Origin: Planctomycetota bacterium
Lineage (GTDB): Bacteria > Planctomycetota > J058
Direction: 5' to 3'
DNA: 64,000 nt
Assembly: GCA_019636275.1 (NCBI GenBank)
Contig: JAHBXY010000028.1
Span: 1 to 64,000 of the forward strand
Each line of letters opens with the position of its first letter. The first letter of the stretch is position 1. Both the position numbers and the translations under genes were made by a program. Shown here piece after piece: positions 881 to 60,790 of the stretch. The notes beneath the pieces are model-generated. The model did no database searches and was not told where the DNA came from. It worked only from the letters and a program-made list of their open reading frames with translations.

Positions 881-1160
881 GTGTGATCGACGGCTGCGGC
901 CGCGGATGCCGGGCGCTGCGGCGCGCGCGCGGGCCGTCGGTGTGGCCCGCCTCCGCGAGCTCCGTCCCACGGCTGCGGTGCTGCAGCCCAGACGGACTCT
1001 ACCGCTCGCGGCCGCCCGCAGCGCGGGACTCTCGCTCGCTCCGGCGGCCCACCGGGGATCCGGCGATCGATATCGGCCGCGCGCGCGCCGCATCGCCTCG
1101 GCCTCCGCGGCCTCGCCTCGCTTGCGGTTGCATTCCACCCGGGTTCGAGCGTGTCGACCC
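881..1160 (+). repeat. Family A hairpin repeat, copy A1
   Basis: About 280 bp. It opens with GTGTGATCGACGGCTGCGG, shared exactly by copies A2, A3 and A4, and carries the 120 bp internal module found in A2 and A3. Inverted arms at about 913-936 (ctgcggcgcgcgcgcggg) and 1074-1096 (ccgcgcgcgcgccgcat) can pair across the module. It closes with a GGTTCGAGCGTGTCGA-type tail also seen in A4 and, inverted, in A3. It starts 5 bp after the TAG of the His-rich gene. Stop codons fall in every frame, so the frames inside it are not genes. Confidence 0.9.
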
Positions 1161-4090: not shown

Positions 4091-4438
4091 ATGGCGATCG
4101 AGCTCACCGACCGCGCCGCGGAGAAGATCAAGGACATCCTGACGAAGAAGGGGCTGCCGCCCACGGCGGGGCTGCGCTTCGGCGTGAAGGGCGGCGGCTG
4201 CTCGGGGTTCGAGTACGTCGTCGACGTCGAGGCGAACCCGCGCAAGTTCGACATGCCCGGCAAGAACGACCAGGTGTTCGTGTCGAAGGGCGCGCGCATC
4301 CTCGTCGACAAGAAGTCGTACCTGTTCCTCAACGGCCTGGAGATCGACTGGGAGGAGCAGCAGTTCGGCCACGCCTTCGTGTACAGGAACCCCAACGCCA
4401 AGGGCGTCTGCGGGTGCGGCACCAGCTTCTCGGTGTGA
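4091..4438 (+). CDS. iscA: A-type iron-sulfur cluster carrier (IscA/ErpA/HesB family)
   Basis: 115 residues, normal for the family. The three ligand cysteines are in place: GGGCSGFEY at about residue 37 and the C-terminal CGCGTSF (residues about 107 and 109). It carries Fe-S clusters from the assembly machinery to client proteins. GGCGGAGG lies 8 nt before ATG. It is cotranscribed with the cysteine desulfurase 15 nt upstream, which supports an Fe-S role. Whether it is functionally IscA or ErpA cannot be told from sequence alone. A degenerate family A repeat begins at its stop codon. Confidence 0.93.
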   Translation: MAIELTDRAAEKIKDILTKKGLPPTAGLRFGVKGGGCSGFEYVVDVEANPRKFDMPGKNDQVFVSKGARILVDKKSYLFLNGLEIDWEEQQFGHAFVYRNPNAKGVCGCGTSFSV

Positions 4439-4620
4439 GCGCGGCTGCGGCGGAGGATGGCGGGCGCTGCCGTTCGTCGGGACCGACTTCGTCGGCCCCG
4501 ACCGCGAAGGCTCGCTCGGCGGCCCACGGCCGCCCTCCCTCGCCTTCGGCCGACACGCCCTGCCCTCCTCCGCCTCGCCTGAGCGGGTGGCTGCGAACGC
4601 GCGTGGTGGTGTGATCGGGA
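4438..4620 (+). repeat. Degenerate family A repeat, copy A6
   Basis: It starts at the iscA stop. GCGGCTGCGGC...GGATGGCGGGCGCTGC matches the A1 opening with substitutions, and GCTCGCTCGGCGGCCCAC matches the end of the 120 bp module. The rest is too diverged to align by eye. The copy lies between convergent genes and may also act as their terminator. Confidence 0.5.
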
Positions 4621-6264: not shown

Positions 6265-6652
6265 TCGGGACGGGCGGGACGCAGCGACGAGCGAGGCGAG
6301 GCCGCGGAGGACGAGGCGAGGCGGCGCGCGCGCGGCCGGTATCGATCGCCGGAACCCCGGTGGGCCGCCGGAGCGAGCGGGAGGCCCGCGGCTGCGGACG
6401 GCCGCGAGCGGTAGGGTCCGCCTGGGCTGCAGCACCGCAGCCGCGGGACGGAGCTCGCGGAGGCGGGCCACACCGACCGGTGGGCCGCCGGAGCGAGCGG
6501 GAGGCCCGCGGCTGCGGACGGCCGCGAGCGGTAGGGTCCGCCTGGGCTGCAGCGCCGCAGCCGCGGGACGGAGCTCGCGGAGGCGGGCCACACCGACGAC
6601 CCGCGGGCGCGCCGCCTCGCCCGGCATCCGCGGCCGCAGCCGTCGATCACAC
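6265..6652 (-). repeat. Family A hairpin repeat, copy A2, with duplicated inner module
   Basis: Reads leftward from TCGATCACAC (6643-6652 on the plus strand). The outer arms lie at about 6598-6620 and 6315-6340 on the plus strand (cgcgccgcctcgc against gcgaggcggcgcg). They enclose two head-to-tail copies of the 120 bp module. The left tail resembles the A1 tail only weakly. The copy separates divergent genes starting at 6200 and 6675. Confidence 0.9.
6361..6600 (+). repeat. 120 bp tandem duplication inside copy A2
   Basis: Units 6361-6480 and 6481-6600 differ by one internal base (A 6434 versus G 6554) and by the last three bases. The near identity shows that the duplication is recent or recently homogenised. 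Single copies of the module sit in A1 and A3; A4 lacks it. Confidence 0.95.
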
Positions 6653-10593: not shown

Positions 10594-11469
10594 ATGACTG
10601 CCCGCGCGCCGGCGCCCCCCCGCCCCGAGGCGCGCCCGCGCCAGTCGACGCCCCCGCCCGGGGGCGCGCCGCGGCCCCGGCGGTCCGAGTTCGACGAGAC
10701 CCAGTGGGGCCACACGACCGAGAAGCGGCAGGTCCACTCGCCGGCCGACGGGCAGGCCGACCCCTGCCGGCGCCCGCTCCCGACGCGCGCCGAGGCCACC
10801 GCCCCGCACGTGCTCGTCTCGGCGCTCCTCGACGAGCCGCTGCTCCTGTCGCGCGAGAAGAAGGTCCTCCTCGGCCGCGACGTCGGGGCCGACGTGCGCA
10901 TCAAGAGCGACCTCGTCTCGCGCCGCCACGCCGAGATCGGCTGGACCGGCCAGGGCTTCGCGATCGTGGACCTGGGCTCCGTCAACGGCACGCTGGTCAA
11001 CGGCGTGAAGATCGGCGGCGCCTGCCACCTGCACGGGGACGACCGCGTGAGCCTCTCGGGGTTCGAGCTCGTCGTCAAGCTGCTCACCGGCGGCGACGTC
11101 GAGGACGTCGGCCAGGGCGGCACGACGCGGATCATGCGGCCGGAGCTCGCCCGGCAGCTGCGCAAGGAGTCGCTCACGGGCGAGCTGGGCCAGCTCTCGC
11201 TCAAGGACGTGCTCGAGCTCCTGGAGTGGAAGAAGCACACGGGCGTGCTCACCGTCACGCCGCCGGGCGCCCCGCCGGGCAAGCTGTTCCTGATCAAGGG
11301 CCAGCTCCACCACGCCGAGACCCCCCGCGGGCACAAGGGCGTCGAGGCGGCCGTCGTGCTCCTGCGCGTCACCGCCGGCCGCTTCGTCTTCGAGCCCGGG
11401 CCCGTGCGCGCGCCCCGGACGGTGACGGTCGACAACGAGGCGGTGTGGGAGAGGGTCCGCGGCGAGTGA
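10594..11469 (+). CDS. FHA domain and DUF4388-like (PatA N-terminal) protein
   Basis: 291 residues from ATG 10594. A disordered Pro/Arg-rich N-terminus precedes an FHA domain at about residues 65-155 with the classic LLGRDVGADVRI, SRRHAEI and DLGSVNGTLVNG motifs, which bind phosphothreonine. The C-terminal 110 residues (GELGQLSLKDVLELLEWKKH...GKLFLIKGQLHHAE) match the DUF4388/PatA-N domain found in Myxococcota, Planctomycetota and cyanobacteria signalling proteins. ATG 10498 is an alternative start that would overlap the kinase gene by 64 bp; neither start has a good Shine-Dalgarno site. It probably reads the output of the adjacent kinase. Confidence 0.87.
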   Translation: MTARAPAPPRPEARPRQSTPPPGGAPRPRRSEFDETQWGHTTEKRQVHSPADGQADPCRRPLPTRAEATAPHVLVSALLDEPLLLSREKKVLLGRDVGADVRIKSDLVSRRHAEIGWTGQGFAIVDLGSVNGTLVNGVKIGGACHLHGDDRVSLSGFELVVKLLTGGDVEDVGQGGTTRIMRPELARQLRKESLTGELGQLSLKDVLELLEWKKHTGVLTVTPPGAPPGKLFLIKGQLHHAETPRGHKGVEAAVVLLRVTAGRFVFEPGPVRAPRTVTVDNEAVWERVRGE

Positions 11470-11471
11470 GG

Positions 11472-11570
11472 TGTACTCGACGGCTGCGGCCGACGGGGCC
11501 GGCCGCGGCGGCGCGCGCGCGGGCTCGAAGTAAGTCGCTACGTCGTCGCCCGCGCGCCTCGCTCGCTGCT
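11472..11570 (+). repeat. Degenerate family A repeat, copy A5
   Basis: It begins about 3 bp after a stop codon. CTCGACGGCTGCGGCC and GCGGCGCGCGCGCGGG match the opening and the left arm of A1; CGCCCGCGCGCCTCGC about 20 bp later can pair with that arm. It is a short copy without the 120 bp module. Confidence 0.55.
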
Positions 11571-16215: not shown

Positions 16216-16499
16216 CTCCGACGCGCTCGAACCCACGGGTGGAATGCAACCACACGTGAGGCGAGGGCGCGGAGGCCGAGGCGAGGGGGGTGCGCGCGCG
16301 GGTCGTATCAGACGCCCTGATCCCCGGTGGGCCGCCGGAGCGAGCGGGAGGCCCGCGGCTGCGGACGGGCGCGAGCGGTAGGGTCCGCCTGGGTTGCAGC
16401 ACCGCAGCCGTGGGACGGAGCTCGCGGAGGCGGGCCACACCGACGACCCGCGCGCGCCCCCCCTCGCCCGGCATCCGCGGCCGCAGCCGTCGATCACAC
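16216..16499 (-). repeat. Family A hairpin repeat, copy A3
   Basis: Reads leftward from TCGATCACAC (16490-16499). The arms at 16443-16467 and 16281-16306 pair almost perfectly (acgacccgcgcgcg...cccctcgc with gcgagggg...cgcgcgcgggtcgt) around one copy of the 120 bp module. The left end GCTCGAACCC is the inverse of the GGTTCGAGC tail of A1 and A4. It adjoins the truncated araC fragment. Confidence 0.9.
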
Positions 16500-32964: not shown

Positions 32965-33666
32965 GTGGCCTATCGCTATAGCGCGTCCGGCACCCTCACC
33001 GTGTCCGAGCGGTGGGTCGACAAGGTCTGCGCGATCCTGCGCAGCAAGGCCATCCGCCACGAGCGGAACGGCAACTCGATCGTGATCAAGCACGACGAGC
33101 GGGCGGCCGCGCCCAGCCGGCACAAGGCGGAGGAGGCCTTCGAGGACCTCGCGCCCTACATCGACCAGCCGCAGGCGCTCATGGTCTACAGCGAGCTGCT
33201 GGGCGAGAGCGAGGTCGGCTTCGTCGACGGCCAGATCCGCACGGACGACGTGCAGAACGTCTGGTCGAACGACGGGCAGGTGCCGACGCCGGAGGAGCTC
33301 GTCGACGAGCTGCGCCGGCGCGGGATCGCCGCCCGCGTGGCCAAGGTGCAGGGGAGCCGCAAGAGCGGGCGCCGCTCGCGCGTGTTCGAGATCCAGCCCG
33401 GCTCGGGCGGCCCCGGCTGCCGCGTGACGATCAAGCGGCGCTTCTGGGACAGCTACGACCTGCTCTCGGTCCCCGAGGTCTACGAGTCGCTCTGCCAGAA
33501 GTACCACATGAGCCCCGACCGCCTGCGCGAGGAGCTGCACGCGGCGAAGTTCGGGATCGAGGTGCGCAAGCCCGCCCTGGGCGGCGCGTCGTCGGACCTG
33601 CTCTTCGACAACCTCCTCGACGTGCTCGAGGAGAAGACCGAGGGGATCCGCACCGAGATCGGCTAG
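32965..33666 (+). CDS. Hypothetical protein, 233 residues
   Basis: Soluble and mixed alpha/beta, beginning MAYRYSASGTLTVSERWVDK; contains QALMVYSELLGESEVGFVDG and a C-terminal helical part (VPEVYESLCQKYHMSPDRLR). No family was recognised. GTG 32965 gives 6 nt spacing from GGGGAGG (32952-32958); GTG 32962 is one codon longer. It is 119 bp downstream of the FHA coiled-coil gene and may share its transcript. The G of its TAG stop is the first base of copy A4. Confidence 0.65.
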   Translation: MAYRYSASGTLTVSERWVDKVCAILRSKAIRHERNGNSIVIKHDERAAAPSRHKAEEAFEDLAPYIDQPQALMVYSELLGESEVGFVDGQIRTDDVQNVWSNDGQVPTPEELVDELRRRGIAARVAKVQGSRKSGRRSRVFEIQPGSGGPGCRVTIKRRFWDSYDLLSVPEVYESLCQKYHMSPDRLREELHAAKFGIEVRKPALGGASSDLLFDNLLDVLEEKTEGIRTEIG

Positions 33667-33825
33667 TGTGATCGACGGCTGCGGCCGCGGATGCCGGGCG
33701 AGGGGGAGGCGCGCGCGGGCCGTAGGATCCGGCGATCGATACGACCCGCGCGCGCTCCCCCTCGCCTCGGCCTCCGCGCCCTCGCCTCGCTTGTGGTTCC
33801 ATTCCACTCGGGTTCGAGCGTGTCG
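33666..33825 (+). repeat. Family A hairpin repeat, copy A4 (minimal form)
   Basis: About 160 bp without the 120 bp module. The arms 33698-33724 and 33740-33765 form an almost uninterrupted stem of about 26 bp (gcgagggggaggcgcgcg with cgcgcgctccccctcgc) around a 15 nt loop ggatccggcgatcga. It ends with the GGTTCGAGCGTGTCGA tail. It begins within the stop codon of the preceding gene. Confidence 0.92.
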
Positions 33826-34080
33826 ATCGCAGCTTGCGCGTTTGGAGCAGGCCCCAGCCCGCGGCTCGCCGGTCCTCTGCGCTGGCCCGCGTCGCCCCGC
33901 GACCCGGGCCAGCTCGCGTTTCCGGAGCCGGTCGTCCGGAATCGCTTTCCAACCGCGCCCCCGGCTGCGAAGGAGGGGGCACATGGGCGGCACGTCCTGG
34001 TCCTGCGAGGCTCCCCCGCCGGCGCGGAGACCGTCGAGGTGGTCCTGATCCAGTCGCGTCGGTGGCCTTGGAGGCGCCGG
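33826..34080. other. Intergenic DNA after copy A4
   Basis: About 255 bp; no gene, tRNA or clear promoter recognised. It lies between a rightward gene plus repeat and a leftward gene end, so no promoter is expected. Confidence 0.4.
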
Positions 34081-42199: not shown

Positions 42200-44341
42200 T
42201 CAGCGCGCCTCGTTCGCCTCCGCGAGCGACTCGAGCTGCGCGCGGGCGCTGGCCGCCCACGGGGCCGACGGCGACAGCCGCAGCGCGCGGTCGAGGTCGG
42301 CCCGAGCGCCGCTCCGGTCGCCGAGCCGCAGCCGCGCGTCGCCCCGCAGCCGGAGGGCGCTCGCGGCGCCTGGATCGAGCGCCAGCGCGCGGTCGAGGTC
42401 GCTGACCGCCCCGCGGGGATCGTCGGCGTGGAGCTTGAAGGTCGCGCGCAGCTCGAGCAGCTCCGCGGGGACGGGGTCCGCGTGCGCGACCGCGCGGTCG
42501 AGGTCCGCGACCGCGCCGGCCAGGTCGCCCAGGTAGGCCTTGCAGATGCCGCGGCTCTTGAAGCCGTCGGCCGCCGGCGCGAGGGCCAACGAGACGTCGA
42601 GGTCCTCGACGGCGCCGCGGTGGTCGCCCCGGGACGAGCGGGCCACGGCGCGGTTCGTCCGGGCGACGGGGTGGTCCGGCTCGAGCTCGAGAGCGCGGTC
42701 GAGGTCCTCCAGGGCGCCGCCCGCGTCGCCGTCGGCCAGCCGTAGGCTGGCGCGCTCGCGGAACGCGGCGGGGTCGTCGGGCAGGAGCGCGATGGCGCGG
42801 CCGAAGTCGTCGAAGGCCTCCGCCCGCTGCCCGACCTGCATCCGCGTCGTGCCGCGCAGCTGGTACGCCTTGCCCATGACGGGGGCGAGGGCGATCACGC
42901 GGTCGAGGTCCTCGAGGGCGCCCCGAAGGTCGCGCACGCGCATGCGGACCCGCGCGCGGTCGAGGCTCACCTGGGGGTCGTCCGGCGCGAGCGACGCCGC
43001 GCGGTCGAGGTCCTCGAGCGCGCCCGTCGGGTCGCCCATCGTGTGGCGGAGGAGGCCGCGCGCGCTGCGCGCGAGCGGGTCGTCGGGGGCGAGCGCGATC
43101 GCTCGATCGAGGTCGGCCAGGCCCTCCTCCCGGCGCCCGGAGTTGGCGCGCACGGTCCCGCGGTTCGTGAGGGCGCGCACCGAGGTCGGCGCGAGCGCGA
43201 CCGCACGGTCCAGGTCGGCCAGGGCGCCGGCGGAGCCTCCCAGGCCCCAGCGGGCCACCCCGCGGTGGGTGAGCGCGTCGGCGTCGTCAGGCGAGCGCGC
43301 CAGCAGCTCGTCGAGGGCCGCGAGCGCGCCCGCGGCGTCGCCGTTCTGCAGGCGCTCCTGCGCCGTGGCGCGGAGCGCCGCGAGCGAGTCGGACGGCGGC
43401 GGCGGGGACGCCTGCTCGGCGGGAGGGGCCGGCGCGTCCTCGGGCGGGCGCTGCCGCGCGGGCGCGAGCGACAGCCCGAGCACGAGCGTGATCAGGATGA
43501 GGGCGGCGACGAGGACGTGCCGCGAGCGCCCCGCGCGACGACGCGCGAGGTGGCGCTCGAGCGCGCGCACGAGCGCGACGGCGGAGGGGAAGCGGGCGGC
43601 CGGGTCCTTCTGCAGGCAGCGCAGGACGAGCGCGTCGAGCGCCCGGCCGACGCCTGGCGCGGCAGGGACGTCGCGCTCCGCCGCGAGCAGCGCCTCGACG
43701 AGCGTCTCGCCGCCCACCGGCGGGCGCCCCGTCAGCGCCGCATAGAGCACACCGCCGAGGCCGTAGACGTCCGTGGCCGGACCCACGTCGGCCGTGCGGC
43801 CCGCGGCCTGCTCGGGCGCCCAGTAGCCGGGCGATCCGACGAACTGACCCGTCGCCGTCAGGCGCGCCTCGGGCGCGGTGAACCCGACGAGCCCGAAGTC
43901 GGTGAGCCGGGGCGCGGTGGGCGCCCCGTCGGGGAGGAGGACGTTGCTCGGCTTCAGGTCGCGGTGGAGGACGCCCTGCGCGTGGGCGTGCGCGACCGCG
44001 CGGGCGAGCGCGAGGCCCACGAGGACCGCCTCGCGCGGGGGCAGCGGCCCCTCGCGCTCGAGCCGCTCCTGGAGCGAGCGCCCGCGCACGAGCTCGAGGG
44101 CGAGCCACGGACGACCGTCCGCCTCGCCGGCGTCGAGGAGCGACACGATCCCCTCGTGGCGCAGGCGGACGAGCGCGCGCGCCTCGCGCTCGAAGCGCTG
44201 CCGCGCGCGTGAGTCGCCCACGGCCGTGAGGCGCTTCAGCGCCACCTCGCGCCCGGTGCGCGCGTCGACGGCGCGGTGGACGCTCCCCATGCCGCCCCGG
44301 CCGAGCACCTCGTGCAGCACGTAGTGGCCGACGCGCTCCAT
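42200..44341 (-). CDS. Transmembrane Ser/Thr protein kinase with C-terminal TPR array
   Basis: 713 residues. Kinase domain about 5-260: glycine loop LGRGGMGSV, Lys in VALKRL (K36), HRDLKPSNVLL (D128), DFG at 148-150 and SPGYWAPEQ in the activation segment, all intact (PknB-like). A TM helix at about 280-300 (HVLVAALILITLVLGLSLA) places the following roughly 390 residues outside the cytoplasm. These contain about ten TPR units with GAL(A/E)DLDRAxALxP signatures. It is typical of Planctomycetota/Myxococcota sensor kinases, with the TPRs probably binding a ligand protein. TACACT ends 7 nt before ATG 44341, suggesting a leaderless mRNA. Confidence 0.93.
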   Translation of the reverse strand: MERVGHYVLHEVLGRGGMGSVHRAVDARTGREVALKRLTAVGDSRARQRFEREARALVRLRHEGIVSLLDAGEADGRPWLALELVRGRSLQERLEREGPLPPREAVLVGLALARAVAHAHAQGVLHRDLKPSNVLLPDGAPTAPRLTDFGLVGFTAPEARLTATGQFVGSPGYWAPEQAAGRTADVGPATDVYGLGGVLYAALTGRPPVGGETLVEALLAAERDVPAAPGVGRALDALVLRCLQKDPAARFPSAVALVRALERHLARRRAGRSRHVLVAALILITLVLGLSLAPARQRPPEDAPAPPAEQASPPPPSDSLAALRATAQERLQNGDAAGALAALDELLARSPDDADALTHRGVARWGLGGSAGALADLDRAVALAPTSVRALTNRGTVRANSGRREEGLADLDRAIALAPDDPLARSARGLLRHTMGDPTGALEDLDRAASLAPDDPQVSLDRARVRMRVRDLRGALEDLDRVIALAPVMGKAYQLRGTTRMQVGQRAEAFDDFGRAIALLPDDPAAFRERASLRLADGDAGGALEDLDRALELEPDHPVARTNRAVARSSRGDHRGAVEDLDVSLALAPAADGFKSRGICKAYLGDLAGAVADLDRAVAHADPVPAELLELRATFKLHADDPRGAVSDLDRALALDPGAASALRLRGDARLRLGDRSGARADLDRALRLSPSAPWAASARAQLESLAEANEAR

Positions 44342-50070: not shown

Positions 50071-50154
50071 TGGCTGGAGCGGTACCGCCGGGAGTTCTGC
50101 CTGGCCGGGGCGACCGACCTGGACTTGGCCGGGCTGGAGGCGCTCGCGGCCTAG
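50071..50154 (+). pseudogene. Gene-end fragment, copy 1 (REFCLAGATDLDLAGLEALAA)
   Basis: An open stretch encodes WLERYRREFCLAG then ATDLDLAGLEALAA and stops at 50154. The same C-terminal peptide recurs in unit B. There is no start codon with a ribosome site and no upstream body of a gene, so it looks like the severed end of a gene carried in with the unit. Confidence 0.45.
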
Positions 50155-50223
50155 ACCGCGCCTGAAGGGTTCCGAGGGGTGGCGCCTGGCACCACGCCTC
50201 CCGGTGCGCCACCCTACCTCCCT

Positions 50224-50616
50224 GTGGAGCCCCCTTCCGAGCGCCCCTCCCCGTCAGGCCGCCTGCCGCGGGGCCTGCGCCGTCCCTGCCCCGAATGCGG
50301 CGAGAGGGTCCCCGCGAGGGTTGGGCGAGTGGTCTGTCCCGAGTGCGGGCTGGACGTGAACGCCGCGTTGAGGGACAAGCGGTATGCCGTTGTCCCCCCA
50401 GACTACAGGAGTGCGCCGCTCCTCCTGAAGCAGGGCTGGTGGGGAGGGCTCGCGTTCATGATCATGGGCGTCATCGCGACGGTCTGGGGACTTTGGGCAG
50501 GTCCAGAACTGGGGGACCCGCGCGGCGTCGTTGTCGGGCCTGTCGCCTTCGCTGTGGGACTGTGGACCATGGTTCGGGACCTATGGCGTCGTTCTCGTCG
50601 TTCACAGGAGGAGTGA
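50224..50616 (+). CDS. Zinc-ribbon membrane protein, paralogue 1
   Basis: 130 residues from GTG 50224. A four-Cys zinc ribbon CPECGERVPARVGRVVCPEC is followed by LDVNAALR, then two TM helices (GGLAFMIMGVIATVWGLWA and VVGPVAFAVGLWTMV) and a basic end. GTG 50224 is preferred to GTG 50179 because unit B keeps the frame only from the equivalent VEPPS start; upstream of it the two units are out of frame with each other. Function unknown; small ribbon-TM proteins often sense or buffer metals or regulate membrane partners. Confidence 0.7.
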   Translation: MEPPSERPSPSGRLPRGLRRPCPECGERVPARVGRVVCPECGLDVNAALRDKRYAVVPPDYRSAPLLLKQGWWGGLAFMIMGVIATVWGLWAGPELGDPRGVVVGPVAFAVGLWTMVRDLWRRSRRSQEE

Positions 50617-50702
50617 CTCCGCCGCTCCGCCACCCTGCCGCATCATCACCTCGCGATGCCTGTCCCCCCTGGCAACCCTCGCCCGTGCTGTTGACAACGT
50701 GG

Positions 50703-50782
50703 CTGGAGCGGAACGCCGGGAGTTCTGCCTGGCGGGGGCGACCGATCTGTACTTGGCCGGGAGGGAGGCGCTCGCGGCGTAG
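50703..50782 (+). pseudogene. Gene-end fragment, copy 2
   Basis: REFCLAGATDLYLAGREALAA ending at 50782, the duplicate of the fragment at 50071-50154. The residues before it are frameshifted relative to copy 1. Confidence 0.4.
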
Positions 50783-50849
50783 ACCGCCCGTGAAGGTTCC
50801 GAGGGGTGGCGCCTGGCACCACACTTCCCGCTGCGCCACCCTACTCCCT

Positions 50850-51224
50850 GTGGAACCCCCTTCCGACCGCCCTTCACCATCAGGCCGCCTGCCGCACCTC
50901 CGTCGTCCCTGTCCCGGATGCGGCGAGAGGGCCCCTGCGAGGGCTGGGCGAGCCGTCTGTCCGGCGTGCGGGCTGGACGTGAACGCCGCGTTGAGGGAAA
51001 GGCGCGCTGCCATGCCCGACCACAGGAGGTGGGCCGAACACCTCCTGAAGGAGGGTTGGTGGGGAGGGCTCGCGTTCATGATCCTCGGCGTCGGCGTGGC
51101 GTTGGGGGCAAGGGATCTGGAGGACCCACGCGGCTACATCGCGGGACTTGGCGCCTTCGCTGTGGGACTTTGGGCCATGGTTCGGGACCTGTGGCGGCGC
51201 CTTCGTCGTTCAAATGAGGAATGA
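50850..51224 (+). CDS. Zinc-ribbon membrane protein, paralogue 2
   Basis: 124 residues. The ribbon is CPGCGERAPARAGRAVCPAC followed by GLDVNAALRER; two TM segments (GGLAFMILGVGVALGA and IAGLGAFAVGLWAMVRDLW) are shortened by small deletions relative to paralogue 1. All four Cys are kept, indicating selection on the zinc site after duplication. Start GTG 50850 aligns with GTG 50224 of paralogue 1; a longer frame to GTG 50790 exists. Confidence 0.68.
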   Translation: MEPPSDRPSPSGRLPHLRRPCPGCGERAPARAGRAVCPACGLDVNAALRERRAAMPDHRRWAEHLLKEGWWGGLAFMILGVGVALGARDLEDPRGYIAGLGAFAVGLWAMVRDLWRRLRRSNEE

Positions 51225-51269
51225 CCCGAGTGCCGTGGGGTTGCTCCCGAGGACTCACGATGCGTCCGG

Positions 51270-55894: not shown

Positions 55895-55963
55895 CCGCCG
55901 TCACGTCCTCGGTCAGGCCCATCCCCGGAGGCCCGGCCGGACAGGGGCGTGGCGGACGCCCAG

Positions 55964-56071
55964 GACGGGCCGGGCCGGGCCGACTCCGGCCGGGGGTCCC
56001 CGTGCTCGGCCGTCGAGCTTCCATGAGCCTGCGAAGCGCGACGAACCACGGCCGAGCACACGGATCCCCCG
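55964..56071 (+). repeat. Family B hairpin element, copy B1
   Basis: Contains a 49 nt block (55964-56012) repeated inverted at 60698-60746 with one mismatch. Stem GTGCTCGGCCGT (56002-56013) / ACGGCCGAGCAC (56048-56059) with a 34 nt loop can extend through the GGGGGTCC and GGATCCCCC flanks. It lies between kdsB and pyrG. Confidence 0.88.
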
Positions 56072-60638: not shown

Positions 60639-60746
60639 GTGGGATCCGTCTGCTCGGCCGCCGTTCCTTGCGCTCCGAGAGCTTACGGGTGGCTCGGCGG
60701 CCGAGCATGGGGACCCCCGGCCGGAGTCGGCCCGGCCCGGCCCGTC
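60639..60746 (-). repeat. Family B hairpin element, copy B2
   Basis: Inverted relative to B1. Stem TGCTCGGCCGCCG (60651-60663) / CGGCGGCCGAGCA (60695-60707), loop 31 nt unlike that of B1. The stem pair T-A of B1 is C-G here. The 49 nt block 60698-60746 matches B1. Confidence 0.88.
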
Positions 60747-60790
60747 GAGGCCGTGCGTGAGGCGCATTCCCGGCCGGGCCTCCTGGCGGC

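Follow-up and report, generated by a model that had tools for sequence, protein, structure and literature searches.

Extragenic palindromes are common, and the YPALs of Yersinia favour the place just behind stop codons. YPAL/RU-2 elements are 168-bp mobile hairpins with filled and empty sites, targets near dyad symmetry, and internal inverted repeats (PMC2229807). The GTAG REPs lie near the 3' ends of genes, and in many cases the TAG stop codon comes from their termini (PMC3733652). REPs located within 15 nt of a stop codon affect translation (PMC12306157). In the present study, we examined a dispersed hairpin repeat in a planctomycete genome. This repeat is probably a new, genus-specific family of non-coding REP/MITE-like mobile palindromes that acts as a hairpin in the 3' untranslated region (3' UTR).

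The host genome is a MAG from an uncultivated member of Planctomycetota (GCA_019636275.1, here G000; 9.33 Mb in 315 contigs, GC content 75.5%). The window is the whole stretch of 64,000 nt analysed from its contig JAHBXY010000028.1. One congener was examined, the MAG ACE_NR_PLAN1 (G001). The statistics on positions and copies were drawn from 1.59 Mb of host sequence and 0.77 Mb of congener sequence, and genes were called with a purpose-made codon-usage gene caller.

The initial annotation of the window had placed the same element at six positions, and we found related sequence at all six. The family consists of three related subfamilies, designated 1 (GTGTGATCGACGGCTGCGG...), 2 (typically GTGTGCTCGACGGCTGCGGGCGACGATG...), and 3 (GTGTGATCGCGGCTGCGGCCGAGGATGG...). 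Each copy is in essence a single long hairpin. The minimal element is a hairpin of about 125 nt with a tail; element length ranges from 125 to 390 nt, and the foot of the stem is GTGTG. In many copies, the loop holds a nested module of about 118 nt, which forms its own hairpin and lengthens the stem. The tail of subfamily 1 often ends in GTCGATCACAC, the inverse of the opening; such terminal inverted repeats (GTGTGATCGAC...GTCGATCACAC) are found in many subfamily-1 copies and are absent from subfamilies 2 and 3. Tandem copies occur, as do mosaics with the left half from one subfamily and the right half from another. Some mosaics (L168) form a single palindrome, each end of which abuts the stop codon of one of two convergent genes. 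The nested module and the mosaics, as well as the stop-codon anchoring and the intron homing treated below, were absent from the initial annotation.

Subfamily 1 has four copies in the window. The full-length copy at 881-1160 (+) follows the gene at 474-875, with its 5' end 5 nt beyond the TAG stop codon, and carries the nested module (CGGTGTGGCCCGCC...GGCGGCCCACCG) at 938-1054 (+), whose own hairpin extends the main stem. In the copy at 6265-6652, the module is duplicated, with tandem units at 6357-6476 and 6477-6596 (120-nt spacing), and the copy at 16216-16499 is full length with the module and GGGGGG/CCCCCC arms. Both of these lie on the minus strand, which corrects the earlier description. 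The copy at 33666-33854 (+) is minimal, with a tail and no module, and its first G is also the last base of the TAG that ends the gene at 33001-33666. Subfamily 2 is represented by a shortened element at 11471-11570 (+), whose start lies 1 nt beyond the TGA that closes the gene at 10594-11469, and subfamily 3 by the element at 4433-4620 (+; GTGTGANCGCGGCTGCGG...), whose GTGTGA serves as the stop for the gene at 4091-4438. Three of the six copies had been described as degenerate or minimal; the one at 4433-4620 is not a degenerate form of the 881-1160 copy and belongs to a subfamily of its own, which is common in the congener. In all other respects, the earlier description is accurate. A subfamily-3 element is also present at the orthologous site of the congener (L213).

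Other repeats were noticed in the same DNA. Tandem 102-base (34-codon) repeats, as in TPR-type proteins, are located at 42260-43344 within the minus-strand gene at 42200-44341. A unit of about 625 bases occurs twice in a row at 50086-51225, with 80-94% identity over several stretches, and a 95-nt inverted repeat (85% complementary) is formed by 55924-56018 and 60692-60786, 4.7 kb apart. In both genomes, there is a further intergenic repeat whose arms are rich in purines (GGAGGACACGGAGGACACGG.../CCTCCGTGGCCTCCGTGG, CAGAGGAGCAGAGG...; L191, L166:18594-, and L213:14944-) and which can likewise form hairpins.

The initial annotation had looked to dozens of copies with covarying arms across the genome. 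The 19-base opening gave 508 matches in the host genome at up to three mismatches, and the reversed pattern gave 0 and 1 by strand. At up to two mismatches, we obtained 429 matches in the host, 104 in G001, and 0-3 in each of 37 other Planctomycetota, which is the chance level (reversed control, 0-1). When up to 117 candidates per genome were scored with a covariance model built on the minimal core, at least 117 matches were obtained in the host and at least 57 in G001; among the candidates scored, none from the 28 other genomes matched. Weak matches of 30-60 bases outside the genus were considered as possible relatives and rejected as GC-rich chance matches, since the covariance model finds none. 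In the unbiased sample of long contigs, there were 49 element intervals per Mb, corresponding to approximately 460 per genome and just under 1% of bases; the genome total is about 460-500 copies, roughly 1% of bases. Rfam gave no family match over the window, where tRNA alone was detected, and no copy was found in the viral contigs or in the plasmids searched. The earlier statement that no described family matches thus stands for Rfam, plasmids, and viral contigs, and for known systems compared mostly by description.

The pairing between the arms is kept while their sequences differ, as had been claimed: GCGGC-type arms pair with GCCGC and GGGGGG-type arms with CCCCCC. In 42 minimal copies, 96.5% of the cells of a 46-bp hairpin are paired, and two-sided changes are found in 16 pairs (135 cells). 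The covariation score of these copies (0.177) is far above both controls, shuffles (0.073 +/- 0.005, with 0 of 500 reaching 0.177) and slid pairings (0.006-0.021). Covarying arm pairs include GGGTCGTA/TACGACCC, GGCCGATA/TATCGGCC, GGCTGATA/TATCAGCC, and GGCTCGTA/TACGAGCC, as well as GGGGG/CCCCC compared with GGCGG/CCGCC and GGTGG/CCACC. Copies from G001 with poly-G/poly-C runs in the stem were excluded from this set. Such stems, with long poly-G and then poly-C runs, were seen at L193, L190, L189, L201, and L222 and are probably sequencing or assembly failures in strong hairpins. When folding was compared with shuffled sequences, the minimal copy at 33666 (z = -6.7), the copy at 881-1160 (z = -4.6), and the copy at 6265-6652 (z = -5.6) stood out; the small copy at 11471-11570 alone folded no better than its shuffles (z = -1.0).

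Several double changes are private to a single copy, with no half-changed intermediate. They fit selection on pairing and, equally well, one-event copying from arm to arm in a DNA palindrome. Because an arm of a DNA palindrome can serve as template for its partner in one step, covariation alone is no proof of selection at the RNA level, and the tolerance of G-U versus A-C pairs, which bears on RNA versus DNA hairpins, offered too few independent events. The homogeneity of the arms may be kept partly through such arm-to-arm copying or through exchange between copies.

The elements are anchored at stop codons. In the host sample, a co-oriented gene lies upstream of 111 of 120 5' ends. When the second and third copies of tandems were left out, the 5' end was located between -6 and +8 nt from the stop codon in 93 of 102 co-oriented first-in-line copies (91%; both species), against 4.2% for uniform placement in the 3' intergenic space. 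The offsets have peaks at -6, where the element's own GTGTGA is the stop; at -1, where TA and the element's G give TAG; at +1 (TGAG|); and at +3 (TGAGTG| and similar). Approximately one-sixth of the non-tandem copies are away from stop codons. Within the window, four of the six copies obey the rule; the exceptions are the two minus-strand elements with 5' ends at 6652 and 16499, neither of which has a co-oriented gene directly ahead. The next gene is convergent at 36 and co-directional at 27 of the element-bearing stops, against a background of 376 convergent and 797 co-directional (p = 4e-5), so that the elements are enriched between convergent genes.

In the reading that we prefer, the element would insert in a single orientation directly after a stop codon or supply the stop itself, and would consequently open the transcribed 3' UTR of the upstream gene. 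By analogy with REP and YPAL hairpins, the transcript hairpin would then block 3' exonucleases and limit read-through at gene ends. Several hundred natural gene pairs with and without a strong 3' hairpin are available in this genus.

The element has also moved recently. Among the sites orthologous between the host and the congener, some are filled in both species and several are filled in just one, in both directions. At these filled and empty sites, the upstream gene is conserved up to about its stop codon. An element of about 190 nt separates the convergent stop codons of L207/L104, which in the other species have a 6-nt spacer between them. Further pairs leave roughly 45-185 nt free at the empty site, yet the element is at the stop. 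At one site (L177/L210), the two species differ in subfamily, with 1 in one of them and 3 in the other. In the sampled stretches, 11 copies do not differ at all across a 126-nt core and have unrelated 5' flanks, so that their spread or homogenisation is recent. The filled and empty sites, together with the identical dispersed cores, establish that the element is mobile. The initial annotation had offered two readings, structural selection and a structured mobile element; copy number and covariation agree with that proposal, to which mobility is now added.

No constant target-site duplication was seen at the filled and empty pairs, the intergenic flanks of which are so diverged that one may have been missed. 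A Tc1/IS630-like TA duplication was rejected: TA precedes many copies, but either TA or TG can follow at the 3' flank, and the copies off stop codons mostly have no TA. No autonomous parent was noticed in the approximately 1.6 Mb read, and 5' ends with an unusual interior held no transposase by eye. The RAYT family (Y1 HUH transposase, PF01797) had 0 matches in G000 and G001, with positive controls and MAGs about 90% complete. As the element showed no coding capacity, it would be moved in trans by an enzyme encoded elsewhere.

The same distribution could be produced by a purely selfish palindrome with no benefit to the host, the surviving copies of which mark harmless sites such as gene ends and the spaces between convergent genes. 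The element is depleted inside operons, all co-directional gaps with an element being at least 165 nt, and this fits such a palindrome, as do the mosaic and tandem copies and the expansion in a single genus. However, if harmlessness alone mattered, copies should be scattered throughout the intergenic space, and the observed placement near the stop is far above its null, even where the empty orthologue has ample room. We regard the purely selfish palindrome as a possibility to be kept in mind, not as the favoured explanation.

Insertion might instead be aimed at translation-stop or transcript-end regions, via the mRNA or via DNA opened behind a terminating ribosome, and would then fix orientation and position from the outset. 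The strict orientation and the sharp offsets speak for it. A TA or a nearby stop triplet precedes 75 of 93 copies at stops, 8 of 34 copies away from stops, and 6% of random positions; since the copies off stops mostly lack it, a plain DNA target motif fails to explain the anchoring. The near-identical group II introns with reverse transcriptases (RTs) in the congener also lend some credit to this mechanism. Against it, no enzyme was linked to the element, off-stop copies exist, and random insertion followed by selection is an alternative source of the same pattern. We consider aimed insertion rather unlikely, and it is similarly doubtful that delivery recognises stop or transcript-end regions in place of a DNA motif, with each insertion keeping or supplying the upstream stop and becoming the 3' UTR. 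As many sites are empty in the sister species and copies of the family are still identical, insertion preference and selection are directly comparable here.

The GTGTG start, which resembles the GUGYG of group II introns, and the sense orientation would suit a relic or an ORF-less derivative of such an intron. We find this highly improbable: neither domain V nor D1-D4 was matched in the window (Rfam, Intron_gpII), and the closing palindrome is not intron-like. In addition, the element itself harbours genuine group II introns, for which it is the target. In the search for mobile partners, RTs were found in both species. All nine RF00029 introns found in G001 (L240-L247 and L222) occupy one common site inside the element; they are near-identical, about 2.05 kb long, carry an RT, and belong to RF02005. 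Their 3' exon is the element's CG[GC]... in nine of nine, and their 5' exon is GTGTGATCG(A)CGGCTG| in all eight that are readable, giving the site GTGTGATCG(A)CGGCTG^CGG. In the host, an intron of another kind (RF02001) is inserted in antisense into a subfamily-3 element, adjoining the stem (L249/L134; G000 C24:41000-44700). The dispersed repeat is thus a group II intron homing site and not an intron relic. No example of group II introns within intergenic repeats turned up in the literature searched. The family offers a case of such introns settled on a dispersed repeat.

An artefact of composition or assembly, for which the GC content of 75.5% and the poly-G/poly-C runs of the congener MAG might speak, is practically negligible given the near-zero reversed-pattern control, the occurrence in two independent MAGs, orthologous sites included, and the excess of covariation.

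The reading as a mobile palindrome family in 3' UTRs can be set against the known systems. Like integron attC sites, the element is a hairpin directly behind a stop codon that keeps its structure as its sequence varies; it has, by inspection, no RYYYAAC/GTTRRRY ends, is dispersed singly, and is gained and lost without a moving gene. It resembles MITEs (ERIC, Correia/NEMIS, and RUP) in being small, non-coding, dispersed, and hairpin-forming, with likely cotranscription, and the MITE criteria of non-coding sequence, a length under about 600 bp, dispersal, and filled and empty sites all apply to it. It differs from them in having no signature of terminal inverted repeats and target duplication common to all copies, no parental IS in the stretches read, and a strict 3'-end orientation. 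With YPAL/RU-2, compared by description, it has in common that both are mobile hairpin elements with filled and empty sites, but it belongs to another phylum and shows no clear target duplication. It is similar to the REP/BIME/REPIN group (GTAG and CGTC superfamilies) as a high-copy extragenic palindrome that mostly lies 3' of genes and in the gaps between convergent ones. The definition of a REP excludes it, because it has the wrong length (125-390 nt versus 20-40 bp), its stem carries no GTAG or CGTC tag at the foot, and neither congener has a RAYT gene. It also differs from REPs in its nested loop module and its tighter anchoring at stop codons; with 91% of the counted copies starting a few bases from a stop codon, the family is an extreme case of 3'-end bias and bears on how palindromes reach the 3' ends of genes.
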